Assembly (NCBI GenBank): GCA_003242955.1 | Contig: QJPH01000425.1 | Location: 1-42,363 of the forward strand | Length of the DNA stretch: 42,363 nt | Direction of reading: 5' to 3' | Source of the DNA: Candidatus Methylumidiphilus alinenensis | GTDB lineage: Bacteria > Pseudomonadota > Gammaproteobacteria > Methylococcales > Methylococcaceae | Part shown: positions 89-38,787 of the stretch, one piece after another | Numbering within the stretch: position 1 is the first letter of the stretch | Layout of the letters: every line of letters starts with the position of its first letter | Translations under genes and position numbers: made by a program | The notes under the pieces: model-generated | What the model was told of the DNA's origin: nothing | What the model saw: the letters and a program-made list of their open reading frames with translations, nothing else | Databases searched by the model: none

Positions 89-350
89 GCTCTAAACAGC
101 TTTAATTTTAACATTAAAGCTATTTAATTTATGTGAAAAATTACCCATATAATTCGGTAATATTTACGTATATATTTTATTTTCATTGGCCTAATATTTT
201 GTCCTACATCCATTGAATAAATGGCTGTCTGACGGGCGGTATTTCAGGCTGCTTACATAAATCGACCATAGTATTTTGTTCTCCCAGCATAAGGAAAGGC
301 CGGTGACTAAGCGCCATTACGTTTTTAACCTAACAGCAGAGGAACCTGTA

Positions 351-1550
351 ATGAACACTAATTCAACCTTCTTAAAATCATCGCGCATTACCTCGTTGGT
401 GTTGGCCTGCGTCGTCTCGGCGGGCGCTTTTGCCGGCCCGCAAGCGAGCAAGGTGAGCGGGGTCACCGTGCTGACCCTGGCTGCGGCCGCAGTGAAGAGC
501 ATCGACTACGCGAACGCCATCTCCCTTGATGTTCCCCAGGCGCTGTTCCAATCGGGTTCGCAGCTCGACTCCTTGCTTGAAGCGCAGGCGGGTGGTGCGT
601 CTTCGTCCTCCGGCGTGGCGGGCGGTTCGGGTACGCCCGCAGGGGCCGGGAATTCCGCTGCTCTCGGCTTTTCCGCCGGCGGCGCGGGCAGCGGCAAGTT
701 GAACCCGGTGACTTTGATCGTGGGCTCGAAGGCATTGGCCAGCCAAGCGGGCGGGGTCGCGCCGCAAGACTTCGGCACGTCCAACCACGTGTACACCGAG
801 GCCAGGACCAACGCACTCGGCGACCTGACCACCCGCTATTACCCGTTCCGGCCCACCGGCAAGCTATGGTTCAACATCGGCGCCAGCAGCTATGTTTGTT
901 CGGCCTCCCTCATCAAGCCGGGGGTGATCGTGACGGCGGCCCATTGCGTGGCGAATTTCGGGGCAAGCCAATTCTATTCCAATTGGCAGTTCGCCGCCGC
1001 CTATGACGGAGGCGTGGCCCCCTACGGCATCGCCACCGCCAAGCAGGCGAGGGTCATTACAGGGTATTTCAACGGCACGGATTCCTGCGCTCAACGCGGC
1101 GTCGTCTGCCAGAACGATGTCGCGGTCATCGTCCTGAACAGTAATGTGGGCAGTTCCGCCGGCTGGTACGGTTATGGCTGGAACGGCTACAGCTACTCCA
1201 ACAACCAGGCGCAAATCACCCAACTGGGCTACCCGCAGTCCATTGACGGCGGCTCTTGGCAGGAGCGCACGGATTCGCAGGGCTATGTGAGCGGCAGCAT
1301 GTCCAACAACACCGTCATCGGCTCGGCAATGACCGGCGGCTCCAGCGGTGGGCCGTGGTTGGTCAACTTGGGTGTAGCGGGCTCCAACCAAGGGGCCGGG
1401 TTGGCCCCGAACGGCAACATTGTCGTGGGCGTCACCAGTTGGGGCTATACCGCCGCCGGCATCAAAGAACAGGGCGCCAGCCCGTTCACCTCCAACAACA
1501 TCGTGCCGCTGGTCAATGCGGCCTGCTCAGCCTACCCCGGCTCTTGCTGA
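351..1550 (+). CDS. Secreted trypsin-like serine protease (S1 fold)
   Basis: Predicted exported serine endopeptidase of 399 residues. I chose ATG 351 because AGAGGAA lies just upstream and a signal peptide begins directly after it (basic start, hydrophobic SLVLACVVSAGAFA core, then Ala-Gly cleavage region). A longer frame opens at TTG 276 but has no ribosome site and would bury the signal. The catalytic triad is visible: His in VTAAHCV, Asp in NDVAVIVL, Ser in GGSSGGPW. Paired cysteines (SYVCS, DSCAQRGVVC, near C-terminal Cys) suggest an extracytoplasmic, disulfide-bonded protein. Between the signal and the protease domain lies a Gly/Ala/Ser-rich stretch, probably a propeptide or flexible spacer. 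Trypsin-like proteases occur in some MoxR-vWA conflict systems, but the signal peptide and the 1-kb repeat block make membership in the downstream operon unlikely. Its substrate is unknown. Confidence 0.88.
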   Translation: MNTNSTFLKSSRITSLVLACVVSAGAFAGPQASKVSGVTVLTLAAAAVKSIDYANAISLDVPQALFQSGSQLDSLLEAQAGGASSSSGVAGGSGTPAGAGNSAALGFSAGGAGSGKLNPVTLIVGSKALASQAGGVAPQDFGTSNHVYTEARTNALGDLTTRYYPFRPTGKLWFNIGASSYVCSASLIKPGVIVTAAHCVANFGASQFYSNWQFAAAYDGGVAPYGIATAKQARVITGYFNGTDSCAQRGVVCQNDVAVIVLNSNVGSSAGWYGYGWNGYSYSNNQAQITQLGYPQSIDGGSWQERTDSQGYVSGSMSNNTVIGSAMTGGSSGGPWLVNLGVAGSNQGAGLAPNGNIVVGVTSWGYTAAGIKEQGASPFTSNNIVPLVNAACSAYPGSC

Positions 1551-2573: not shown

Positions 2574-4007
2574 ATGCGGGATTCGATTTTCATCAGTTAT
2601 AGCCACAAGGATAAAAGATATCTGGATGAATTCCAGACCATGCTCAAGACTTATCAGCGCATTGGTTCAGTCAATGCTTGGGACGACACAAAAATCAAAG
2701 CCGGTGGGAAGTGGCAGGATGAGATTCAACACGCTTTGACGGATGCTAAAGCCGCCGTATTGTTGGTCAGCACCCATTTTCTAGCCTCCGATTTCATTGC
2801 GCAGCATGAATTGCCGCCGTTGTTGGAAGCCGCCAAGCAGGACGGGTTGACTGTGTTCTGGGTCTGTTTGAATACCTGTCCGTATGAAAAAACCGAGATT
2901 TTTTCCTATCAATCTGTCCACGATCTGACCAAACCACTCAGCCGTTTGTCACCGGATAAGAGGAATATAGTGTGGAAGGGTCTTTGCCAGCAGCTTGAAG
3001 TGGTGGGTAAGCGCTTTATGCCTTCTCCTATTACTTTAACGGGTAACCAAACAACCGAGGAAATCAAAATTGAAGATGTTGATCCCCTGCTGTTGAAAAT
3101 GGTCGTCGCCATCTTGGATCAAAGCAAAGAAGCTACGGAGCAATTAGCCAATGATTTTGGATTGGAATACGAAACGATTGATGACTGCCGGGAAAAGGTA
3201 GCGCGAAAAGCGGTCACAACACCCTTGTATAAACTAGTTGATTTAGCCAGAGAGTGTCAAGTCGCCTTGCGTATAAAAAAACCGCCAGCAAAACTGGCAG
3301 CGGCTGTCATCGCAACATTCATGGCGATGGTTTTTCCCACCCAAGACTCGGCCAGAAGGCGACAGAATAATTCCGGTGGTAACGGGGACTGGCGCAATGA
3401 TAACTTTCAATTGCTAGTCAGTCGGGCCACCTTGGCGGAAATCAGAATGGCGGCTCTAGACAAAAGACTTGCTCAATTTATTTTTACTCAAGACGGCAAA
3501 CATAAGGGAAAGGGACATTTTGGCGAAGCAGAGCCTTGGGAAGTTGGCAGGGATCCAGATTGGATTCAGTTTGAAATAGATTTGGTCGATTTTTTATGTA
3601 AGCAATTTGAAGATAAATTTGATCAAGATTGGCGACTTGTCACAAATAAAAGCTTTAGGGATCATTTTGAAGAAAGAAAAGGCATGTCACCAATCGGGGA
3701 AGATGAATGGTTGAAGAATATGATTAGTCGTGTAATAGAAGCAAAAGCTAGAGATATCGCCAATAAGATCAGTGAAGATAGCGGGATCAAATGTAAAGCC
3801 TTTACTTTCTATTTTTTAATTAAAACGCCGATTTGGATGACACAGGAAGAGATAACGAAGCAAGATGCCGTCTTACAAAGATTGAGAATGTGGTTTACCC
3901 CTATCGCTTTTTTGCGACTAACCCCGGAAACCGAAGAATCAGCCTTGGACATGGTGCCTTTTTTAAACCTGCACAAACTGCTCAACCCCAACGAGGGAGA
4001 TATTTAA
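2574..4007 (+). CDS. TIR-domain effector of a MoxR-vWA conflict system
   Basis: A 477-residue cytoplasmic protein. Residues 1-130 form a TIR domain: FISYSHKDKRYLDEF is the first strand and helix, VNAWDDTKIKAGGKW the BB-loop region, and Glu79 in FIAQHELPPLL matches the catalytic glutamate of NAD-cleaving TIR enzymes. Residues about 165-240 are helical with a TPLYKLVDLAREC segment resembling effector-associated adaptor domains, which couple effectors to partners (inference). Residues 270-477 form an unrecognised alpha/beta region. The gene starts the operon and ends in TAATG, overlapping the MoxR start by one base. A GGAAAGC ribosome site precedes ATG 2574. It is visibly more AT-rich than the next two genes, suggesting a separate origin. 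The expected role is NAD depletion or nucleotide signalling upon activation. Domain identity is firm; the enzymatic activity is inferred. Confidence 0.88.
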   Translation: MRDSIFISYSHKDKRYLDEFQTMLKTYQRIGSVNAWDDTKIKAGGKWQDEIQHALTDAKAAVLLVSTHFLASDFIAQHELPPLLEAAKQDGLTVFWVCLNTCPYEKTEIFSYQSVHDLTKPLSRLSPDKRNIVWKGLCQQLEVVGKRFMPSPITLTGNQTTEEIKIEDVDPLLLKMVVAILDQSKEATEQLANDFGLEYETIDDCREKVARKAVTTPLYKLVDLARECQVALRIKKPPAKLAAAVIATFMAMVFPTQDSARRRQNNSGGNGDWRNDNFQLLVSRATLAEIRMAALDKRLAQFIFTQDGKHKGKGHFGEAEPWEVGRDPDWIQFEIDLVDFLCKQFEDKFDQDWRLVTNKSFRDHFEERKGMSPIGEDEWLKNMISRVIEAKARDIANKISEDSGIKCKAFTFYFLIKTPIWMTQEEITKQDAVLQRLRMWFTPIAFLRLTPETEESALDMVPFLNLHKLLNPNEGDI

Positions 4008-5008
4008 TGGACTTCATCCCCGTCAAACCCCAAACCGTCGAACTGGCTTCCGCCAACCCCAACTTGCCCCTGCGCCATCAATTTGAACTGCGCCAGATCA
4101 AAGCCATCAACGCGGCGCTGTCCGCTTGCCGTCCTTTGCTGGTCAGGGGGGAGCCGGGGGTGGGCAAGAGCCAGTTGGCCCGTGCCGCCGCGAATGCTTT
4201 GGGGCGGGTGTTTTTGCAGCATGTGGTGGATTCTCGCACCGAATCCCGCGACCTGCTGTGGCATTTTGACGCGGTGGGGAGGCTAGCCAAAGCGCAGATC
4301 ATGGGGGCTTTGCAATTCGGCACGGAGAAAAAGGCCATGAACGTCTTGGAAGAAGAACTGGCCGTGGATCGTTTCCTCCATCCCCGCGCCCTGTGGTGGG
4401 CCTTTGATTGGGAAGGGGCTTTGGAACAAGCCGAAAAGCTCAAGGAGGGCGGGCCGCCCAATCCCGACAGGGGAGACCCGGCCACGGGCAGTGTCGTGTT
4501 GATCGACGAGATCGATAAGGCCGAGCCGGATGTGCCCAACGGCCTGCTGGAAGCCTTAGGCAACGGTCAGTTCACGCCGCAGGGCTTCGGACGGCCCGTG
4601 GTCGCCAGCGGCATACCGCCCTTGGTGGTCATTACGACCAACGAAGAGCGCACCCTGCCCGATGCCTTTATCCGCCGCTGTCTCGTTCTGCACTTAGATT
4701 TGCCGAAGGAGCCGGACAAGCTCATCGCCAAGTTGGTGGAACGGGGCAAGACCCATTTCGGTGACAAGACCACTGCTGCGGTGCTTAAGAAAGCCGCCGA
4801 ACTGCTGGCCCAAGACCGCGCCGAAGCCGTTCAGCGCCATTGGCGGCCTTTGCCGGGGCAAGCCGAATACTTGGATTTGCTGCGAGCGGTCATAGGCTTG
4901 TCCCAAGGCAAGCCTAAACATCAGGAGCGTCTGATCGACGAGGTGGCCCGCTTTGTCCTGAAAAAGCATCCCGAGGCCGCCCAGCCCGAAGACGGGGAGG
5001 AGGCTTGA
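4007..5008 (+). CDS. MoxR-type AAA+ ATPase
   Basis: A 333-residue AAA+ ATPase. The frame stays open upstream to 3833, but ATG 4007 overlaps the TIR stop (TAATG) and gives the normal N-terminus, so translation is probably coupled. Walker A is GEPGVGKS (residues 48-55), Walker B VVLIDEIDKA (about 162-171), sensor 1 VVITTNEER (about 207-215), followed by the paired arginines of FIRRCL expected to act as arginine finger. MoxR ATPases work as ring chaperones with vWA-domain partners. Here the next gene has a vWA-like region, matching the MoxR-vWA couple. An insert around residues 100-150 (WWAFDWEGALEQAEKLKEG) lies between Walker A and B. The probable job is to threshold or remodel the sensor/effector complex in an NTP-dependent way. 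The family call is strong; the role in this system is inferred. Confidence 0.9.
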   Translation: MDFIPVKPQTVELASANPNLPLRHQFELRQIKAINAALSACRPLLVRGEPGVGKSQLARAAANALGRVFLQHVVDSRTESRDLLWHFDAVGRLAKAQIMGALQFGTEKKAMNVLEEELAVDRFLHPRALWWAFDWEGALEQAEKLKEGGPPNPDRGDPATGSVVLIDEIDKAEPDVPNGLLEALGNGQFTPQGFGRPVVASGIPPLVVITTNEERTLPDAFIRRCLVLHLDLPKEPDKLIAKLVERGKTHFGDKTTAAVLKKAAELLAQDRAEAVQRHWRPLPGQAEYLDLLRAVIGLSQGKPKHQERLIDEVARFVLKKHPEAAQPEDGEEA

Positions 5009-8000
5009 ACAGTCTACCGCCCCGCCGTGGCATCCTAAGCCGCGCCGATTTGGTGGCGGCATTAGCCGCAGCGGAGGGTGGGCGGCCCGACGCGACCGCC
5101 CTGATCATTGCCGATGCCATCGGCTTGGAATGGGTGTCGCCCCTGCCCAAACCCCGCGCTGATAAAACCAAGCGCGACGTTGCCCCGCAAATACTGACCC
5201 CACCGATTAACCAAGCACCGCTATTGGAAACCCGGTTCTGGCGGGTGGAAGAGGCAGAATTCTTCTCTGACCCGGATACACCCGAACCGCCAACTGAAAT
5301 CACCGTTTTCGAAAAATGGCGCAACCCGCCCAAAACCTTGCCCCGTTTCCAGCCTTTGTCCGTCTGGGCCGAACTGGCCCCGCGCCTGCGCAAAGTGCTT
5401 AGTCAATATCGCGAAGGCCGGGCCATCGACCTGAGCCTGACGGTCCGCCAAATCAGCCGAGGCCATTTGTTGGAACGCTTTCCCCGCGAACGCCGCCGCC
5501 GCTGGGGGCCTGCCTTGCTGTTGATCGAAGACGACAGCCACCGGCTGGTTCCATTCCGCGACGATAAGCACTTAGTGCGCAGGGCCATCCAGAGCCTGTT
5601 GCCTCGGCATAGCCTACTGTGGGCACTGATGGACGAACAGCGGACGCGGCCCGAACGCTTGGGCCAAGGGCAAGCCGACTGGCCTCCGCTGCCCGGCACC
5701 TTGGTCTTGGCACTGAGTGATCTGGGGTGTTTCTCAAGGGCCGACGAAAGGCTTAGGCAACGCTGGCTAGACATCGGCAAGGAATTGCAAAAAGCCGGCT
5801 GCCATCCCATCGCCCTGTTTCCCGGCCCTTTAGGCCGTTGCATGCCGGAACTGGCCGGTGTTTGGCAACTCGTGCCTTGGGAACGCCCGCGCCCCGATGA
5901 CGGCTGCACAGGGGACGAACGGGCCGAGCGCTTGTTGCGCCTTCTTGCCCCGGCCTCGCGCATTACGCCGGGTTTGCTTCGGGCCGTCCGCTTGCTGTTG
6001 CCGGAGGCTCAAGCCGACGCTGGCACCGAGTCCGATGTTTGGCAACACGGGGATTTCAACAGCCATTGGGTTGTCCCCAGCCTTGTGCCGGAACGCGCCC
6101 TAGCCCTACGCCGGGAACTGGCCAGCCAACCGGGCGAGGCAGCCCGTGCCTTGCGCGCCCGTTTGATCCGTTGCCTCAAAGGCTTCCGCTTTTTTCTACA
6201 GCCGGAAATTTGGTTCGACGAAGTGCTGAACTTCGACCCTTCCGCCCTAGACAGCCAGGAACTGGCGGAAGACCGCGAAGACGCGCAAGCCTACTTCGCC
6301 GCTTTTTGCGATGCAAACCCCGATTTGTCCAATCTGTCCATGCCGGGCGGCGACCGCGCGTGGTTCCTCCGCGTCAAGGCCCGTTCCCCCGAACTGCTCT
6401 GGTATGACGAAAAAGTCGGCAAGCGGCTGGCCCAACTAGCCCTAGCGTTGGAACCGGACGGCGCTCCGCCTGCCGGCATCGGTGCCCGCGACATCCCCCA
6501 CGGAGGCAGACCTGAGTGCAAGGTCTATCTGGTGCAAAGGGGTTCCCAACTGGCGTTCAACGGTGACGCGGCGCAATCCCAAGGCTTGGGCAGTGCCTTA
6601 GGTCAAATGCCCAACCGCAACGGCTTGGTGGAAATCACGCTGGACGACAACACCTTCTGGGAATCTGGCCAGCCGCCTAGCTGGGCCGAGGCTTGGGGTT
6701 GGGATGAGTTTGGGGCTTGGGTTGAGTTTTCGGTGAGGACTGACAGCGCGTGGCGATATGAAGGAACCGTGAAACATGGACGCAAAGACAGCCAACGGGT
6801 CACCCAGCGCATGAGATGGATAGAACCGGGAAGTTTTCTGATGGGTTCGCCGGCAACGGAGGCCGAGCGTTTTGATTGGGAGGGCCCACAGCATGAAGTC
6901 AACATCAAAGAAGGCTACTGGCTGTTCGACACCGCCTGCACCCAGGCTTTGTGGGAAGTGGTCATGGGCAATAACCCTAGCCGTTTCAACGATGAAGATG
7001 GCAAAAAGCCCGTCGAACAAGTGAGTTGGGACGATGCGCAAAAATTCATACTAGCCCTGAACCAGAAGATGCCGGGGCTGGATTTGGGCTTGCCGACCGA
7101 GGCGCAATGGGAATATGCCTGCCGAGCCGGAACCACCACGCCATTCAGCTTTGGCGACAACATCACCCCGGAGCAGGTCAATTACAACGGCAACTACCCC
7201 TATACCGGTGGCAAGCAAGGCTTGTATCGGCAAGAGACGGTACCGGTTAAGAGTCTGCCCGCGAATCCATGGGGCTTGCATGAGATGCACGGCAATGTTC
7301 GGGAATGGGTGCAGGATGCGTGGCACGGCAATTACAACGGCGCACCGACCGATGGCAGTGTTTGGGAGTCTGCCGAAACTGGCGCGGCCCGTGTGGTTCG
7401 CGGCGGGTCCTGGTACTTCAACGCGAGGCTCTGCCGTTCTGCGTGCCGTTACTACTACGACCCCGTCTCCCGCGGCAACGGCACTGGCTTTCGTTGCGCC
7501 CGAGTTCAGGGTCGTGAGCCAGGCAAGCAGGAGGCGGGCCGGGGCAAGGCAGACGCGGAGCGGAGCGGAGCCAGTCTGCCGAGGCCCCGGCCTGCCGCGC
7601 CGGTATTTGATCGTTCCCACGCTCTGCGTGGGAACGCAGCCGATGGCGCTCCGCGCCAAGAAATAGGCCGGAATAAGCCCGCCCCGGCGGGCGTTTCCGG
7701 CAAACTGACTGGTTCCCAAGCAGGAGCTTGGGAACCAGCGCGTTTACTCCGCCTCGACACCACCCCTGTGGCAACCGCAACCTTGCCACAGTGCCGCGCC
7801 TTCGTCATCCTCACCGACTGTGAAAGGCTGACAGTGCGGCAAATCGTCAAGCCATCATGGGCCAAATCCATGGGCCGCGACCGCTTCGGGCTGTGGGCCG
7901 ACATCGCCGTCGAAGCCAATCAAGGCGAGCCGGTCATCCAACGTTTACGCTGGATTCCGCCAGGACGGTTCATGATGGGTTCGCCGGATAAAGAGCCGGG

Positions 8001-8709
8001 GCGTTGGAGTCCCGAAGGTCCACAGCACCCAGTCACGATCAGCCAAGGTTATTGGCTCTTTGACACGCCCTGCCCACAGGCACTGTGGGAAGCGGTGATG
8101 CCTTCCAACCCTAGTTATTTCAAAAGCCCTTTGCGCCCGGTCGAACAAGTCAGTTGGGACGATGCCAAGACCTTCCTGCAACGCATCAATGAGAAATACC
8201 AAGGGCTGGCCTTGGCCTTACCGAGCGAGGCGCAATGGGAGTATGCTTGCCGTGCCGGGACCGAAACGGCCCTGTACACCGGCGGAATCGAGATTCTGGG
8301 CGAAAGAAACGCCCCGGCCTTGGACCCAATTGCTTGGTACGGCGGCAATAGCGGCGAAGGTTACGAATTGCCGGGAGGGTATGATTCATCGGACTGGAAG
8401 GCGATGCAATATCAAAACCCAAAGTCCGGCACCCGCGAAGTCGGTCAGAAACAACCCAATCCGTGGGGGTTGTATGATATGCTCGGCAATGTTTGGGAAT
8501 GGGTGGAAGACCCGTGGCATTCAAACTACGAGTTAGCACCGATGGATGGCAGCGTTTGGCAATCTGACGAAGCTGGCGCGGCCCGTGTGGTTCGCGGCGG
8601 GTCCTGGTACTACGACGCGTGGGGCTGCCGTTCTGCGTGCCGTCACTACGACGGCCCCGGCGGCCGCGGCATCAACGCTGGCTTTCGTTGCGCCCGAGTT
8701 CAGGCGTGA
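5005..8709 (+). CDS. vWA-like protein with two C-terminal FGE/lectin-fold domains
   Basis: A 1234-residue protein, probably the vWA partner of the upstream MoxR and the ligand-sensing part of the system. Start TTG 5005 lies in TTGA, overlapping the MoxR stop by 4 bases, after a strong GGGGAGGAGG. Residues 1-580 resemble the N-terminal region of SAV_2336-type proteins. A degenerate vWA-like fold is suggested by ALLLIEDDSHRLVPF (about 171-185) and TLVLALSDLGCF (about 232-243). FGE domain 1 spans about 555-836 and FGE domain 2 about 960-1234, each with RWIxPGxFxMGSP, SWDDA, LPxEAQWEYACRAGT, NPWGL, GNVxEWV and RGGSW...GFRCARV motifs. The copper-binding Cys pair of true formylglycine-generating enzyme is not conserved: the first position is Phe or Tyr, so I expect a binding fold rather than an oxidase. 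Each domain ends in a candidate DGR variable region. The linker 837-955 is translated hairpin/REP-like repeat DNA, an apparent gene fusion. Confidence 0.85.
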   Translation: MNSLPPRRGILSRADLVAALAAAEGGRPDATALIIADAIGLEWVSPLPKPRADKTKRDVAPQILTPPINQAPLLETRFWRVEEAEFFSDPDTPEPPTEITVFEKWRNPPKTLPRFQPLSVWAELAPRLRKVLSQYREGRAIDLSLTVRQISRGHLLERFPRERRRRWGPALLLIEDDSHRLVPFRDDKHLVRRAIQSLLPRHSLLWALMDEQRTRPERLGQGQADWPPLPGTLVLALSDLGCFSRADERLRQRWLDIGKELQKAGCHPIALFPGPLGRCMPELAGVWQLVPWERPRPDDGCTGDERAERLLRLLAPASRITPGLLRAVRLLLPEAQADAGTESDVWQHGDFNSHWVVPSLVPERALALRRELASQPGEAARALRARLIRCLKGFRFFLQPEIWFDEVLNFDPSALDSQELAEDREDAQAYFAAFCDANPDLSNLSMPGGDRAWFLRVKARSPELLWYDEKVGKRLAQLALALEPDGAPPAGIGARDIPHGGRPECKVYLVQRGSQLAFNGDAAQSQGLGSALGQMPNRNGLVEITLDDNTFWESGQPPSWAEAWGWDEFGAWVEFSVRTDSAWRYEGTVKHGRKDSQRVTQRMRWIEPGSFLMGSPATEAERFDWEGPQHEVNIKEGYWLFDTACTQALWEVVMGNNPSRFNDEDGKKPVEQVSWDDAQKFILALNQKMPGLDLGLPTEAQWEYACRAGTTTPFSFGDNITPEQVNYNGNYPYTGGKQGLYRQETVPVKSLPANPWGLHEMHGNVREWVQDAWHGNYNGAPTDGSVWESAETGAARVVRGGSWYFNARLCRSACRYYYDPVSRGNGTGFRCARVQGREPGKQEAGRGKADAERSGASLPRPRPAAPVFDRSHALRGNAADGAPRQEIGRNKPAPAGVSGKLTGSQAGAWEPARLLRLDTTPVATATLPQCRAFVILTDCERLTVRQIVKPSWAKSMGRDRFGLWADIAVEANQGEPVIQRLRWIPPGRFMMGSPDKEPGRWSPEGPQHPVTISQGYWLFDTPCPQALWEAVMPSNPSYFKSPLRPVEQVSWDDAKTFLQRINEKYQGLALALPSEAQWEYACRAGTETALYTGGIEILGERNAPALDPIAWYGGNSGEGYELPGGYDSSDWKAMQYQNPKSGTREVGQKQPNPWGLYDMLGNVWEWVEDPWHSNYELAPMDGSVWQSDEAGAARVVRGGSWYYDAWGCRSACRHYDGPGGRGINAGFRCARVQA
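7379..7510 (+). other. Candidate DGR variable region VR1 (internal)
   Basis: This is the 3' end of FGE domain 1. The variable codons are 7414-7485 (residues 804-827), between RGGSW and GFRCARV. Most variable codons are NNC (TAC, TTC, AAC, CTC, TAC, GAC, GTC, TCC, AAC, GGC), as produced by adenine mutagenesis of AAC template codons. The tract 7379-7417 is identical to 8573-8611 and 7484-7510 is identical to 8678-8704; between them there are 15 substitutions, none at a third codon position. An internal, non-terminal VR is unusual. Confidence 0.8.
7533..7596. repeat. GC-rich hairpin downstream of VR1, translated
   Basis: Imperfect long stem: left arm 7533-7554 (GGCGGGCCGGGGC start, GGCAGAC end) pairs with 7574-7596 (GTCTGCC start), with a loop made of GCGGAG repeats. 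It occupies the same place relative to VR1 as the hairpins after VR2 and VR3, but here it lies inside the reading frame. It is followed at 7611-7640 by a CGTTCCCACGCTCTGCGTGGGAACG-type hairpin and at 7673-7710 by a GGAATAAGCCCGCC repeat. Confidence 0.75.
8573..8704 (+). other. Candidate DGR variable region VR2 (C-terminal)
   Basis: This is the 3' end of FGE domain 2. The variable codons are 8608-8679 (residues 1202-1225), 24 codons long as in the other VRs. Compared with VR1, residues at 14 or fewer codons change by 15 first- or second-position substitutions, while all interleaved constant codons (CGT TCT GCG, CGT, CGC, GGC TTT CGT) are identical at nucleotide level. The stop follows five residues after the conserved GFRCARV segment, the normal C-terminal placement of DGR targets. 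Confidence 0.83.
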
Positions 8710-8910
8710 GGCCGGAGGGCCAAGAGCGGAGCGCACGCAACCGGGGGCGGCCCGGCCGCGGAGCGGACAGGGCCGGGCCGCCCCCTGTTGCGTGGCGCGT
8801 AGGCCGGAATAAGCCCGCCCTGGCGGGCGTTCCCGGCGAAAAATACCATCATTGCCGGAACGACGAATGGCGTTCGTTCCCAAGCTCCCGTTCTTGCCGT
8901 TATACACAAG
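8710..8910. other. Post-VR2 spacer with REP-like unit
   Basis: After the hairpin 8731-8798 comes the unit AGGCCGGAATAAGCCCGCCC...GGCGGGCG (about 8800-8840), which also occurs after VR1 (7673-7710) and VR3 (about 10540-10575), then ATACCATCATTGCCGGAACG shared with the VR3 downstream region. No gene. Confidence 0.75.
8731..8798. repeat. Long GC-rich hairpin downstream of VR2
   Basis: About 27-bp stem: left arm 8731-8757 and right arm 8771-8798, with one bulge and one mismatch, around the loop GCGGAGCGGACAG (8758-8770). It begins 22 bp after the stop codon. The same structure follows VR3. DGR targets in phage BPP-1 need a hairpin/cruciform just after the VR for homing, so a comparable role is possible; a transcription terminator without U-tract is the alternative. 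A GGAATAAGCCCGCCCTGGCG repeat follows at 8802-8840. Confidence 0.8.
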
Positions 8911-9302
8911 TGTTGGATACCCGTCATTCCGGCAGGGATGCCGGAATCCAGCGTCCAAGGACGGCAACCTCCCGGTTTGACGTTCGCCCGAAAAATAGTG
9001 TTGGACACCCGTCATTCCGGCAGGGATGCCGGAATCCAGCGTGCAAGGACGGCAACCTCCCGGTTTGACGTTCACCCGAAAAATAGTGTTGGACACCCGT
9101 CATTCCGGCAGGGATGCCGGAATCCAGCGTCCAAGGACGGCAACCTCCCGGTTTGACGTTCGCCCGAAAAATAGTGTTGGATACCCGTCATTCCGGCAGG
9201 GATGCCGGAATCCAGCGTCCAAGGATGGCAACCTTCCGGTTTACGTTCGCCCGAAAAATAGTGTTGGATACCCGTCATTCCGGCATCCCTGCCGGAATGA
9301 CG
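8911..9302. repeat. Tandem array of 88-bp units containing CATTCCGGCAGGGATGCCGG
   Basis: Five head-to-tail units: the GTCATTCCGG landmark falls at 8923, 9011, 9099, 9187 and 9274 (spacing 88, 88, 88, 87). Units are nearly identical over their full length. The last is truncated and closes as a palindrome (GTCATTCCGGCATCCCTGCC followed by the complement). The core is the dispersed GTCATTCCGG palindrome found elsewhere in the window. The interval 9303-9523 to the next gene holds a short GGCGGCGGCGACACCGCCG palindrome and nothing else recognisable. Confidence 0.9.
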
Positions 9303-9523
9303 GTTTTTTTCTAGTTTTCAATACCTTTATGCAACTGCGATTTTTCACGATACCCATTTATGGCGGCGGCGACACCGCCGACGAGTTGAACCTGAACAGG
9401 CCGCCCTCACGGTGTCGGTTCGCCGTCGCCAAAACCCAAAGGCCCCCGGTGTGCTAGTAGCGGAAGGCGGATGCCCCGCGAACGCTCGCCGGTGGGCCGC
9501 TCCATTTTGAACGGTTCGATACG

Positions 9524-10447
9524 ATGCAAACCACACCCTTCATTGACACCGCTTGGCATCCACTGGCTTCCGGCAACCCGCCCGCATGGGCCAGCGAGTG
9601 GGGGCAGGATGAGCATGGCGTGTTTGTCGCCTTCACGTTTGGCGCTGTCACTCAACGCTTGCGCTGGATACCGCCGGGGCGGTTTATGATGGGCTCATTG
9701 GAGGAGGAGACTCGCGGCTTGGCGAAGGAAAGCTATGAAGAGGAATGGTTCAAGCGAGAGCATCCCCGGCACACCGTTTATATCACCAAAGGCTTTTGGC
9801 TGGCCGGCACCCCTTGCACCCAAGCCTTATGGGAAGCCGTGATGCATTCCAACCCCAGCCGCTTCAAAAGCCCTCGCCGCCCGGTCGAACAGGTCAGTTG
9901 GAACGACGTGCAAACCTTCCTGCAACGCATCAACGCCGAGATACCCGGCTTGGATTTGGTGCTGCCCACCGAGGCCCAGTGGGAACACGCATGCCGCGCC
10001 GGGACCGACACCGCGCTGTACTCAGGGCCGATTGAGATTCTGGGCGAACGAAACGCCCCGGCCTTGGACCCCATTGCTTGGTACGGTGGCAATAGTGGCG
10101 TAGGTTACGAATTGGATGAATTTTCCGATTCCTCAAGTTGGCCGCAGATGCAATACCTCAACCCCAAATCCGGCACTCGTGAAGTCGGCAAGAAGCACTA
10201 CAACTCGTGGGGCTTGCATGACATGCTCGGCAATGTCTGGGAGTGGTGCGCGGATGGGTTGAGGGTGTACACCGAAGACACGCAGATTGACCCGGTAGGC
10301 CCGGTGGACGCTGGGGCGGACCGTGTGTTGCGCGGCGGATCCTGGCGTGACTTCGCGTGGTACTGCCGTTCCGCGAGCCGTTTCGGTTCCCCATCCGTCA
10401 ACCGTGACTACTACGCCGGCTTCCGTTGCGCCCGAGTTCAGGCGTGA
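9524..10447 (+). CDS. Stand-alone FGE/lectin-fold protein (diversified target)
   Basis: A 307-residue protein of the SUMF1/FGE-like fold with no signal peptide. It contains WASEWGQDEHGVFVAF, an N-terminal module also seen before both FGE domains of the 1234-residue protein, then RLRWIPPGRFMMGS (about residues 45-58), VEQVSWNDVQTFL, LPTEAQWEHACRAGTDTALY, WGLHDMLGNVWEW and RVLRGGSW...GFRCARVQA at the C-terminus. Its body is closest to FGE domain 2 upstream (for example the ILGERNAPALDPIAWYGG segment is shared), so the two are duplicates. The catalytic copper-binding cysteine pair of true FGE is not conserved. ATG 9524 has no strong ribosome site; it may be transcribed separately from the operon, since 0.8 kb of repeats intervenes. 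The likely role is a hypervariable ligand-binding component of the same conflict system. Confidence 0.85.
   Translation: MQTTPFIDTAWHPLASGNPPAWASEWGQDEHGVFVAFTFGAVTQRLRWIPPGRFMMGSLEEETRGLAKESYEEEWFKREHPRHTVYITKGFWLAGTPCTQALWEAVMHSNPSRFKSPRRPVEQVSWNDVQTFLQRINAEIPGLDLVLPTEAQWEHACRAGTDTALYSGPIEILGERNAPALDPIAWYGGNSGVGYELDEFSDSSSWPQMQYLNPKSGTREVGKKHYNSWGLHDMLGNVWEWCADGLRVYTEDTQIDPVGPVDAGADRVLRGGSWRDFAWYCRSASRFGSPSVNRDYYAGFRCARVQA
10322..10441 (+). other. Candidate DGR variable region VR3
   Basis: Variable codons are 10346-10417, again exactly 24 between GSW and GFR. Variable codons include GAC, TTC, TAC, TTC, TCC, TCC, GTC, AAC, GAC, TAC, TAC. Unlike VR1/VR2 it has silent differences in the constant codons (GGA for GGG, TTG for GTT, TCC for TCT, TTC for TTT) and its proline sits one codon earlier, so it was either copied from another template or diverged long ago. 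The 3' end from CGTTGCGCCCGAGTTCAGG onward is identical to VR2. Confidence 0.72.
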
Positions 10448-10468
10448 GGCCGGAGGGCCAAGAGCGGA

Positions 10469-10536
10469 GCGCACGCAACAGGGGGCGGCCCGGCCGCGGA
10501 GCGGACAGGGCCGGGCCGCCCCCTGTTGCGAGGCGC
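10469..10536. repeat. Long GC-rich hairpin downstream of VR3
   Basis: Left arm 10469-10495, loop GCGGAGCGGACAG (10496-10508), right arm from 10509. The inner 21 bp pair perfectly. The whole 10439-10605 segment is almost identical to 8701-8868 after VR2, including the adjoining GGAATAAGCCCG repeat and the ATACCATCATTGCCGGAACG tail, so the downstream DNA was duplicated or homogenised with the VR end. Confidence 0.82.
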
Positions 10537-35892: not shown

Positions 35893-38787
35893 TTATAAGT
35901 CTTGGGCAAGACGGAAGCCGATGAAGTAGCTCCGGTCGTCCGTATCGTACCCGTAGCGGTGGGCCGAGCGGAGGTAGACCGGCCTGCTGTTCCAAGATCC
36001 CCCGCGAATCACTCGCCGGTCTGAGGCACATTCCGTGCCATCATCAAATATACCACCGTCATTGGGTGCGCCCTGATAGCTATCGTGATAGCAATCCTGC
36101 ACCCACTCCCAAACATTGCCCAAGGTATTGTGTAAGCCCCAGGCATTGGGCTCAAAGGCATCCGCCGGGGCCGTGAACGGAAAATCATCCGAACATTTAA
36201 ACGGTTCCCAGGTGATGCCGCCATAAGTGGCTTTAATCCTAGACTCATTGTTCTGGTCGAACACATTGGCATAGGTGCAGGCCGTGTCGGGTTCGCCTGG
36301 TGGGTTTTCGGCCCAAAACCGGGGCGTTGTCGTGCCGGCGCGGGTGGCATATTCCCATTCCGCCTCGGACGGCAGCCGATACCATTTTCCGGTGCGCTCG
36401 GACAGCCATTGCGCGTAGGCCACCGCATCGTCCCAACTGATATTGATGACCGGCCGATTGCCACGCCCCCAGCCTTGATCGTTCGGTTTGTCGCGGTCGG
36501 TGGCGGCGGCAAACAAATCGAACTCGTCAAAGCTGACTTCATAACGGCCCAGCGCAAAGGGTTTGGCGAATTGAACCGTGTGAACGGGTTTCTCGTCATC
36601 TTGCCCATTCGGATCGCCCATTTGGAAATCTCCTGCCGGTATCCTGACCATGGCCGGTTCGGTCAACGGCCAGAGTTGGTATTGAACCAATAGGGCTTTC
36701 GTTGCCAAGGCGGGCGGATAAAAAGATCGGCTGACATGGAAAAACAGGCCCAAGCCTAGAACCAAGCCGATGCCTGAAACGGCCCAACCGACTTGCATCC
36801 ATCGACTTTTGTTGTTGCAGGCGGTCAAATAAGCTTGCGCGGTTGCCGAGCGCGGTTCGGCCGCTTGACTATAGCCCTTGAGCAGGTTCCCGGTGCGCAA
36901 GCCCGCGTCCGGCTTTCCGGCCTTGTCCCATTCATCGGCGACCCGTTCCAAATCGCGGCGCAAACGCAGTGCTTTGGCAGCGTCTAAAATCCACAGCCGC
37001 AAGCGGTCCCAGCCGCTCAACACCGTTTCATGCGACACTTCCAGCGTGGCTTGGTTTTGTTCCCCGTTGCCGGACACCAACAGCCTCGCTGTGGTCAGGG
37101 CGGCGGCCAGTTTTTTCATGTCCCCGGTCAGGTCTTTTTGTAGCGCACGGCGACGGGTGGCGACTTCCTGCTCGTTGACTTCGACCAAGTACGCGAACAG
37201 CTTGGGCAAGGCTGTGTCTAGGTTTAGGGAATTTTTCAGCCCGGCCAATGCGGTGTTGGCACGTTTTTGGATGGACCCGGTCACGCCGCCCAGGCTTTCA
37301 TAGGCGGCGATGCTAAGGTAGTGCGAAGGCAGTTCCTGTTCGTATAATTGATTGAGCGTGTAAGCGATCAGTGCCATCGCCCCCGGTCCCCGGCCTGCCT
37401 CGTCCAGCAGCTTGGTTGCCAAGCCGTCTTGCAGTTCCACACCGGCCGCTTCGGCAGGGCGGGTAATCATTTGATGAATCGCGCCGGTCCCCGGCAAGTC
37501 GAGCGGGAAAGTGCCACGATCTTGGCGCAGAAGGTTGGCTAGAATGGGTTCGGTAATCGCGGTGGCGTAAAAATCGGCGCGTAAGGTCACTACCGCCCGG
37601 ATGCGCGGCAGCGACACAACACGCTCCAACAGCTTAATGAAATCCCCCGTCTCACTGGGCTTGCATTGGGTAAACAATTCTTCAAACTGGTCGATGACCA
37701 GTAATAGCTCTTTGGCTGGCGGATGGTTTGTCAGCAAGGTGTCCAGATGGCGTTGCGCAAGCCGCCCGTCAGCTTGCAGCGAGCCGGCCAGTTCGGCTTC
37801 GGTTTGATCGGTGAGTTTCAGTTGGTTTTTCAGGGTAACAGCCAATGCCAGAAAAGGGTTGTCCCCTTTCTCGCCGGGTTTGAAGATTATGTCTATCCAA
37901 GGGGCATGGTTAATCAGGCCGGTGCGCAGGTGCGGCAACAAGCCGGCCTTAACTAGGGATGACTTGCCGGACCCGGATACGCCGACGACGGCGACAAAAC
38001 GGACCTTAGTGTCGGCAAACTGATTCAGCAATTGATTGACCTCGCGCCCCCGGCCAAAATAAATCGGGGCTTGTTCCGGGGTGAATGCCTCCAAGCCGGG
38101 GTAGGGCGATTCGGTCCAGAGCGGTTTTACTAAAGGGTTGCCAGAAACATCGGAATTACTGGCGGGGGGCAAGGTTTCCAGCAACTTATCCAAGCGGTCG
38201 CGCAGAAAACGCTCGAATTGTTGGCTGAAGTCGTTGGGTGTGTCGTAGCGGTTAATCCCCCCATTCAGTGAGTTGTCAGGATTGGTGAAACCTGTAAAGA
38301 ATTTTTGCAGTTTTCCCCATTGCTCGACGATGGTTGAATATTGCGGATCATCCAAAGCGGGTTTGGGGACTTCCATGCGTTGGAACACCCAGATATTGCC
38401 GGGTTGTTGCTTTGTTCTAAAGCCTTTGATCGCATTCAGGTACTCCCATTCGGTGCCGGACAGATACGGCGTGCCGTCTGCCTTTAATTCAAAGTCGGCA
38501 GGTATTGGCGTGCCGATGCGCGACCAGAGGATGACCACCACCAAATCGCAATCCTCGGGTTTGGGTAGCCCCTGGGCAATGGCTTGTTGCGGGGTCAACC
38601 CGGCTTCCATCGCCACCGCCGCACCGGGTTGGTCCCACGCGACAATTTCACACCCGATTCGTCCACGAAATCGCCGTTCGCCATTGATGTGGTCGATGGC
38701 TTCGCGGGCCAGCTTGCGTTCAAACGACACATCACCGGGTGAGGCGAGAAATATCCGAAATCGCTTCAAAAGATTGGCATCGGTCAT
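35893..38787 (-). CDS. DUF4062-like/nSTAND ATPase/TM/FGE-fold conflict protein
   Basis: A 964-residue multidomain protein. Residues 8-200 resemble the DUF4062/TIR-like sensor-effector domain (FRIFLASPGDVSFERKLARE, EDCDLVVVILWSRIGTP). Residues 225-620 are a novel-STAND NTPase: YPGLEAFTPEQAPIYFGR entry motif, Walker A GVSGSGKSSLVKAG (about 265-277) and Walker B LLLVIDQFEELF (about 361-372). One transmembrane segment (about 662-683, SGIGLVLGLGLFF) precedes an FGE/lectin-fold domain (about 715-964: MVRIPAGDFQMGDP, SWDDAVAYAQWLSERTG, LPSEAEWEYATRAGT, GNVWEWVQDC, RVIRGGSW...GFRLAQDL). The topology suggests an exposed FGE-fold sensor on one side and NTPase/effector on the other. Its C-terminus is a candidate VR. 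ATG 38787 abuts a MITE end. It is the second conflict protein of this window. Function is inferred from architecture. Confidence 0.87.
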   Translation of the reverse strand: MTDANLLKRFRIFLASPGDVSFERKLAREAIDHINGERRFRGRIGCEIVAWDQPGAAVAMEAGLTPQQAIAQGLPKPEDCDLVVVILWSRIGTPIPADFELKADGTPYLSGTEWEYLNAIKGFRTKQQPGNIWVFQRMEVPKPALDDPQYSTIVEQWGKLQKFFTGFTNPDNSLNGGINRYDTPNDFSQQFERFLRDRLDKLLETLPPASNSDVSGNPLVKPLWTESPYPGLEAFTPEQAPIYFGRGREVNQLLNQFADTKVRFVAVVGVSGSGKSSLVKAGLLPHLRTGLINHAPWIDIIFKPGEKGDNPFLALAVTLKNQLKLTDQTEAELAGSLQADGRLAQRHLDTLLTNHPPAKELLLVIDQFEELFTQCKPSETGDFIKLLERVVSLPRIRAVVTLRADFYATAITEPILANLLRQDRGTFPLDLPGTGAIHQMITRPAEAAGVELQDGLATKLLDEAGRGPGAMALIAYTLNQLYEQELPSHYLSIAAYESLGGVTGSIQKRANTALAGLKNSLNLDTALPKLFAYLVEVNEQEVATRRRALQKDLTGDMKKLAAALTTARLLVSGNGEQNQATLEVSHETVLSGWDRLRLWILDAAKALRLRRDLERVADEWDKAGKPDAGLRTGNLLKGYSQAAEPRSATAQAYLTACNNKSRWMQVGWAVSGIGLVLGLGLFFHVSRSFYPPALATKALLVQYQLWPLTEPAMVRIPAGDFQMGDPNGQDDEKPVHTVQFAKPFALGRYEVSFDEFDLFAAATDRDKPNDQGWGRGNRPVINISWDDAVAYAQWLSERTGKWYRLPSEAEWEYATRAGTTTPRFWAENPPGEPDTACTYANVFDQNNESRIKATYGGITWEPFKCSDDFPFTAPADAFEPNAWGLHNTLGNVWEWVQDCYHDSYQGAPNDGGIFDDGTECASDRRVIRGGSWNSRPVYLRSAHRYGYDTDDRSYFIGFRLAQDL
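35896..36018 (-). other. Candidate DGR variable region VR4
   Basis: The 24 codons 35920-35991 (minus strand) lie between RGGSW and GFRLAQDL, the same length as VR1-VR3. They include AAC, AGC, AGG, GTC, TAC, CTC, CAC, TAC, TAC, GAC, GAC, AGC, TAC, TTC interleaved with constant CGC TCG GCC and CGC. This is the classic pattern, but there is no second copy to compare and no GC-rich hairpin like those after VR1-VR3. Confidence 0.55.

Follow-up and report, generated by a model that had tools for sequence, protein, structure and literature searches.

Organization of the locus

The stretch of DNA analysed here (the window; 42,363 nucleotides of Candidatus Methylumidiphilus alinenensis, contig QJPH01000425.1, below C20) contains a gene with two variable repeats (VRs) that are attributed to a diversity-generating retroelement (DGR), the template repeat (TR) and reverse transcriptase (RT) of which lie on another contig. 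The open reading frame (ORF) at 5005..8709 (+), the DGR target, encodes an N-terminal region of about 600 amino acids of unknown type and two FGE domains (PF03781 in two stretches, E 7.9e-87); beyond PF03781, no Pfam match was obtained for it at E 0.001. VR1 (7379..7508, +) is internal to the ORF and VR2 (8573..8702, +) lies at its 3' end. Both are followed by GC-rich hairpins, located at 7533..7596 (+) within a coding linker and at 8734..8794 (+), the latter with 24-bp arms (23 paired) and a 13-nt loop, GCGGAGCGGACAG. The second FGE domain matches the Treponema denticola variable protein 2y3c (E 1.8e-17). Structure prediction with AlphaFold2 gave a mean predicted local distance difference test score (pLDDT) of 33 for the N-terminal region and 34 for the tandem FGE part, and these models were not used.

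The gene order 5' of the target is a trypsin-like peptidase (276..1550, +; PF00089, E 5.6e-8), a TIR-domain protein (2574..4007, +; PF13676, E 2.1e-12; PADLOC ThsB, E 4.8e-17), both possible effectors, and a MoxR-like AAA ATPase (3833..5008, +; PF07728, E 1.4e-11) with an uncertain start codon, its ORF overlapping the TIR gene. On the 3' side follow an array of 4.3 copies of an 88-bp repeat resembling miniature inverted-repeat transposable elements (MITE-like; 8909..9285, +), a 63-bp stump of an HRDC gene (9329..9391, +) and a short FGE-only gene (9524..10447, +; PF03781, E 1.5e-36), which is the counterpart of a gene at 2487-3410 on contig C128. The short gene carries a decayed VR (W3; 10311..10440, +), behind which lies a third GC-rich hairpin (10474..10530, +) with 22-bp arms and a 13-nt loop identical to that of the VR2 hairpin.

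Variable repeats and their template

Regarding VR1 and VR2, a preliminary description had reported that the two FGE ends are identical over 39 nt (7379-7417 = 8573-8611) and 27 nt (7484-7510 = 8678-8704), and that all 15 substitutions between these blocks fall on codon position 1 or 2, with one copy keeping an A at 8 of the 15 differences; a recount returned the same figures. Its further argument, that the lack of third-position changes alone would have a chance of roughly 0.002 under random placement, stood only in part: no third position is changed, but the argument is weaker than stated, because the adenines of the TR lie nearly all at codon positions 1 and 2 (13, 14 and 1 at positions 1, 2 and 3, respectively). 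The bias was therefore reduced to a mere consequence of TR composition.

The expected TR, with AAC at the variable codons and next to a DGR-type RT, is present elsewhere in the genome. Used as a query against the organism's own genome (G000; 6.57 Mb, 597 contigs), VR2 yielded 20 matches, among them the TR at C128:3567-3696 (-) (below TR128), which is rich in AAC codons and lies directly downstream of an RT gene (C128:3725-4744, -; PF00078). The best solved match of this RT was 8ub7_A (E 5e-44), which we take to be the bRT of phage BPP-1, with the motifs IGxLTSQ and YMDD aligned; both motifs are typical of DGR RTs. Beside the RT gene lies an HRDC gene (C128:4741-5223; PF00570, E 1.9e-15), a type of accessory gene that is able to replace Avd in DGRs. 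The 3' sequence for initiation of mutagenic homing (IMH) is GCGCCCGAGTTCAG after 10 of the 12 VRs assigned to this TR, as opposed to GCGCCCGAGCTCAC in the TR; likewise, GAGTTCAG occurs in 10 of the 12 VRs (not in those on C65 and C137) and GAGCTCAC in the TR. A DGR-type RT, an adjacent TR, VRs changed only at adenines and placed at the ends of CLec (C-type lectin)/FGE domains, a difference between IMH and IMH* and an accessory gene were thus all found.

The TR and the VRs were compared over 125 aligned bases, comprising 28 adenines and 97 other sites. Against the TR, 16 of the 28 adenines are changed in VR1 and 18 in VR2, and both VRs match at 97/97 non-A sites (P for change at adenines only, 5e-13 and 6e-15, respectively). 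All 15 differences between VR1 and VR2 fall on TR adenines (28/125 sites; hypergeometric P 4e-12), which supports the earlier proposal that both VRs were rewritten from one TR. Among nine VRs of the TR128 class (C65, C137 and the decayed W3 being left aside), variation was seen at 27/28 A columns and 4/97 non-A columns, and 56% of the A sites were changed, 67 times to G, 64 times to T and 11 times to C. A stop codon is impossible at any variable codon, and about 6.6e15 peptides can be encoded by a single VR. An origin of this pattern without any retroelement, through strong positive selection and occasional gene conversion among FGE paralogs, could draw on the abundance of such paralogs (64 PF03781 matches in the genome, TRs and fragments included), but the unchanged sites include third codon positions, the changes in VR1 and VR2 are confined to TR adenines and the TR lies directly behind the RT; being already contradicted by the TR-RT pair and the A-only pattern, it deserves practically no credence.

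Targets in the genome

Eleven VRs fit TR128, having 0 to 5 non-A changes against it per 125 bases, namely VR1, VR2, three VRs on C128 (a, b and c) and one each on C4, C50, C61, C6, C65 and C137; the nine outside the window belong to eight genes on seven contigs. The target proteins are of the types DUF4062-NACHT-FGE (C4), nSTAND1-FGE (C50) and TIR-FGE (C61, C6 and C137), and the C65 target is an FGE protein with no other Pfam match. In total, six TRs (TR160 and TR317 being nearly identical) sort at least 24 VRs into five classes. The scan took in the window together with 16 fetched regions and the 30 loci reported for the 64 matches to FGE, and the VR count is a lower bound, as FGE pieces on several further contigs lay outside it. 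Strain variation could account for some contigs of the TR160/TR317 class. This other class (loci on C160, C317 and C380) has six VRs and a pair of almost identical TRs; downstream of several of the VRs lies a pyrimidine-rich stretch in place of a hairpin with a conserved apex. A further nSTAND1-FGE gene lies in the window at 35893-38787 (-); at its end it differs from the nearest TR (TR107) at 18 non-A sites and is therefore not at present targeted by any of the TRs found.

Homing and common descent were told apart by comparing the VRs with 500 bases taken upstream of each. VR1 and VR2 are identical at 270/434 upstream positions (62%) and at 97/97 non-A VR sites; VR1 and C128b agree at 422/494 and 96/97, respectively. 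The contrast is weaker for VR2 and C128a (477/500 and 97/97; Fisher P 0.016). The distant FGE proteins on C4 and C50 (about 30% amino acid identity) also carry VRs that match the TR at 97/97 non-A sites. W3 behaves differently: its identity to C128c is 439/500 upstream and 82/97 at non-A sites, which indicates that it drifted like its gene body. With 20/28 A and 15/97 non-A sites changed against TR128, W3 can be matched to none of the six TRs detected and serves as a natural negative control for homing.

VR1 and C128b have 2 nt more after the VR than C128c, by which the stop is lost and two FGE domains are joined; either state may have come first.

Probable loss of the local cassette and writing in trans

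None of the seven RVT_1 matches in the genome lies on C20, and no TR was found on scanning the window. A broken RT on C317 was detected by tblastn only. The region at 9279-9392 is 96.5% identical to the start region of the C128 HRDC gene, and the sequence at 9377-10448 continues as that downstream of the C128 TR (87% DNA identity); the junction falls in a shared TTGAACC (9386-9392), where the HRDC stump is fused to TR-downstream sequence, and the leftover HRDC frame runs into a stop after 42 codons. Relative to C128, about 1.6 kb is absent from the window, corresponding to the rest of the HRDC gene, the RT and the TR. As the HRDC stump remains, this absence is counted as a deletion in the window, and the local HRDC-RT-TR cassette has probably been deleted from this locus, judging from its sequence. 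The 88-bp repeat of the adjacent array has at least 74 matches in the genome when those of the array itself are counted (40 of 465 candidates were scored), and one partial copy of 52 nt occurs at the matching place in C128. In Thiohalocapsa PB-PSB1, MITE-like arrays replace the RT at two loci, and targets in trans are documented for DGRs, according to the accessible text of PMC10907252.

VR1 and VR2 are most likely served in trans by the RT-TR pair of C128. The DGR reading of the preliminary description is confirmed from the rest of the genome, with the correction that the RT and TR lie on another contig. Alternatively, VR1 and VR2 could be fossils, written by the window's own TR before the cassette was deleted and static since. 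The apparent deletion itself, the decay of W3 and the upstream region of VR2, which is still so similar to that of C128a that perhaps little time has elapsed, are in line with this. A separate local TR would, however, be expected to have drifted from TR128 like the flanks (about 5 to 15%), whereas 0/97 non-A sites differ; moreover, the VRs on C4, C50 and C6, where searches of the fetched stretches found neither RT nor HRDC, also fit TR128 (0, 0 and 1 non-A changes). Fossil VRs are accordingly regarded as unlikely.

Of 61 genomes, 7 held TR-like DNA (at most 13 candidates scored per genome), six of which, the own genome included, belong to the genus of the window. The TRs of G000 and of one relative, G003, differ at eight sites in the stretch compared, and nine VRs of the own genome have the base of their own TR at 8/8 of these; the number of departures from it is one in C137, two in C65 and four in W3. 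One of the eight (site 149) is little informative, as G also occurs in 9 of 10 G003 copies. A deletion of the cassette shared with G003 from ancient times is unsupported, the counterpart of the window locus in that genome (C173) being without an HRDC stump.

Several observations weigh against rewriting in trans from C128. The deletion may be recent (stump region 96.5% identical to C128; TR-downstream sequence 134/149 identical, with gaps at the alignment end counted), so that some of the writing could predate it. The VRs on C65 and C137 carry 4 and 5 non-A changes. Regarding the VR-like copies in G003, 1 of 10 fits the TR of that genome (1 non-A change) and the other nine show 4 to 13; the copies are mixed at the eight sites, some of them having the G000 base at several, and C173 fits poorly. 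Finally, the genome is a draft in 597 contigs with 4.4% contamination. With these points considered, VR1 and VR2 are still held to be, very probably, DGR variable repeats rewritten in trans from the C128 TR after deletion of the local cassette.

Several VRs in G003 (L075, L076, L078, L079 and L080) share a CAG...CAG pattern, a hint of a TR not found there; a pattern search of G003 for a second TR, allowing up to 3 mismatches, found none.

Hairpins downstream of the variable repeats

GC-rich inverted repeats lie downstream of most VRs of the TR128 class. The motif AGCGGA follows 11 of the 12 VRs of this class (W3 included, C65 not) and 2/2 VRs of the C172 class, as opposed to 0 of 15 FGE genes without a TR match (Fisher P 2e-7; chance 0.035 per 140 nt). 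In the TR128 class, 10 of the 12 VRs have it in the loop of their best inverted repeat, and the repeat is strong in about half. Inverted-repeat scores were 15-24 for VR2, W3, C128a, C128c, C4 and C6, which is above all controls (4-14), 13 for C128b, 11 for C50 and VR1, 7 for C61 and C137, and 5 for C65. Downstream of the six TRs, only short inverted repeats were found (score 5-8). The DNA folding energy is unusual for the hairpins of VR2 (z -4.25) and W3 (z -5.50). Ten hairpins sharing one loop type were aligned, five of them from G000 and five from relatives, which does not make a random sample. They covary: both sides had changed in 10 of 20 pairs, the values observed were reached in 0/500 shuffles, and controls slid along the alignment gave 2 to 6 pairs.

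In BPP-1, a hairpin after the VR supports homing and its stem sequence is free to vary, as stated in the accessible parts of PMC3240598 and PMC12875486, and a role in homing may likewise be considered for the present hairpins. It is quite possible, if somewhat short of probable, that they are instead ordinary transcription terminators or dispersed palindromes with no such role. T runs follow some of them, duplication may account for those of related copies, the energy of the VR1 hairpin is ordinary (z -0.87; it is not the best inverted repeat of its stretch), and the C61 and C137 repeats score within the control range. The pattern AAGCGGAGCG shows no genome-wide enrichment (24 matches, 8 of them after VRs; reversed pattern 22), a further AGCGGA stands about 90 nt behind TR128 without being part of a strong hairpin, and in G003 the motif follows just 3 of 9 VR copies. 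Against this stand the hairpins of VR1 and C128b, which lie inside ORFs, where a terminator would cut the protein; the distribution of AGCGGA, which beyond the class counts given above follows 6/6 VR copies of G001, G002, G004 and G006; and the pattern GCGRAGCGGAGC, with 8 occurrences in 6.57 Mb against 3 of the reversed pattern, 6 of the 8 lying after VRs and two of these overlapping at VR1.

A long hairpin with a conserved apex might instead act as a portable address tag, so that a VR end plus a hairpin would make a gene a target of the central RT-TR pair. This idea may well be right but is advanced with less than even confidence; the weak hairpins of C61 and C137, the missing motifs in G003 and the AGCGGA after TR128 lowered it and raised the terminator explanation. 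Two related ideas were dropped. Loss of the hairpin does not account for VR decay: W3 decayed with its hairpin kept, C65 lacks one (4 non-A changes) and C137 has a weak one (5 non-A changes). The apex is not a general rule beyond the genus, either, because near the closest RT from outside AGCGGA follows 1 of 3 VRs, outside the loop. The hairpins of PMC10743442 are, in the accessible text, protein beta-hairpins and irrelevant to DNA hairpins after VRs.

Regarding RTs beyond the own genome, a search of 369 genomes of the class yielded a related RT at E 1e-40 in 8 genomes besides the own, and TR-VR pairs were found in 6 of the 7 that were scanned (L153 was left out), the pair of L162 lying at a contig end without downstream sequence. 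A relative of the C128 locus occurs in an uncultured Methylococcaceae metagenome-assembled genome (L044; RT 89% identical). Outside the genus, the closest RT (59% identity) is that of L161 (G344), a related DGR in another family; three VRs fit one TR there with 1 or 2 non-A changes and have GC-rich flanks downstream, whereas the VRs of more distant RTs have pyrimidine-rich flanks.

Proposed mechanism and significance

In the mechanism proposed, RNA of the C128 TR would be copied by the C128 RT with errors at adenines, and the complementary DNA (cDNA) would replace the VRs at the 3' ends of FGE domains. The VRs of the window would be written in trans, the local HRDC-RT-TR cassette being deleted, and targets would be chosen probably by the shared 3' IMH sequence and perhaps also by the long hairpin just downstream. 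Presumably, the DGR still acts on VR1 and VR2 and has done so in trans since the deletion. The protein diversified in this way probably acts as the sensor in a MoxR/TIR/trypsin conflict system; a role of the targets in defence is suggested by their gene company.

If the address-tag idea is correct, one mutator would keep dispersed immune sensors (MoxR-linked, NACHT, nSTAND1 and TIR) variable in step, and loci could shed their own cassette yet keep diversification. The window offers a clear example from nature of a DGR that most likely writes in trans, for which a decayed VR and a deletion stump provide internal controls, and a testable rule for how one retroelement might find many genomic targets. 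As the targets resemble immune sensors, the system bears on the question of a pre-made, varied receptor repertoire in bacteria.

Comparison with known systems

Among the titles retrieved on DGRs together with methanotrophs, none concerned bacterial methanotrophs, and no long hairpin with a conserved apex was apparent among the papers listed on hairpins and cruciforms. The system shares with the BPP-1 DGR (accessible text of PMC3240598) the RT, the TR, adenine mutagenesis, the IMH and a hairpin located downstream of the VR, for which the structure of the stem matters and not its sequence. The hairpins of BPP-1-type phages, as described there, have 7-10 bp stems and 4-nt GRNA loops, a form not seen here, where the stem-loops are mostly longer and the loops larger (9-25 paired bases; loops of 13-19 nt in 7 of the 10 VRs with AGCGGA in the loop). 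Unlike in BPP-1, the accessory gene is of the HRDC type and targets are most likely served in trans.

The remote variable proteins of cyanobacterial DGRs (PMC7517822, as far as accessible) are similar in that paralogous targets are dispersed in the genome, and cis features such as cruciforms have been suggested there to activate them. They belong to another bacterial group, and remote VRs were recognized there by more than 50% identity to the TR, in contrast to the few non-A differences used here. The vWA-MoxR ternary conflict systems (VMAP; accessible text of PMC7159879) share the MoxR ATPase, peptidase and TIR effectors, the FGE (FGS) domain and a DGR. The combination of a MoxR ATPase with TIR or peptidase effectors characteristic of them was found in the window; for a vWA domain in the window target no Pfam match was obtained at E 0.001, a threshold that a very divergent one could escape.

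The closest likeness is to Thiohalocapsa PB-PSB1 (PMC10907252), for which the accessible text describes several DGR classes in a single genome, CLec targets in tandem, nearby genes for MoxR, TIR and trypsin-like proteins, arrays of MITE-like repeats where the RT was lost, and VRs of DGR 4 and 5 that match the TR of DGR 2 at all non-A sites, i.e. in trans. The window also resembles clade 5A of Dore et al. (same source), with MoxR, a target with an unknown N-terminal extension and a short CLec-only target, a likeness of gene arrangement only. The word hairpin occurs 0 times in that text, which mentions stem loops for its MITE-like repeats. Unlike in PB-PSB1 as described there, one TR here fits 11 VRs spread over eight contigs, some of which belong to NACHT, nSTAND1 and TIR proteins with no RT found nearby, and a deletion stump, a decayed VR and long hairpins after VRs are present. 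The system is thus of a known kind, the DGR-diversified conflict systems, its new parts being the dispersed target set and the long hairpins.

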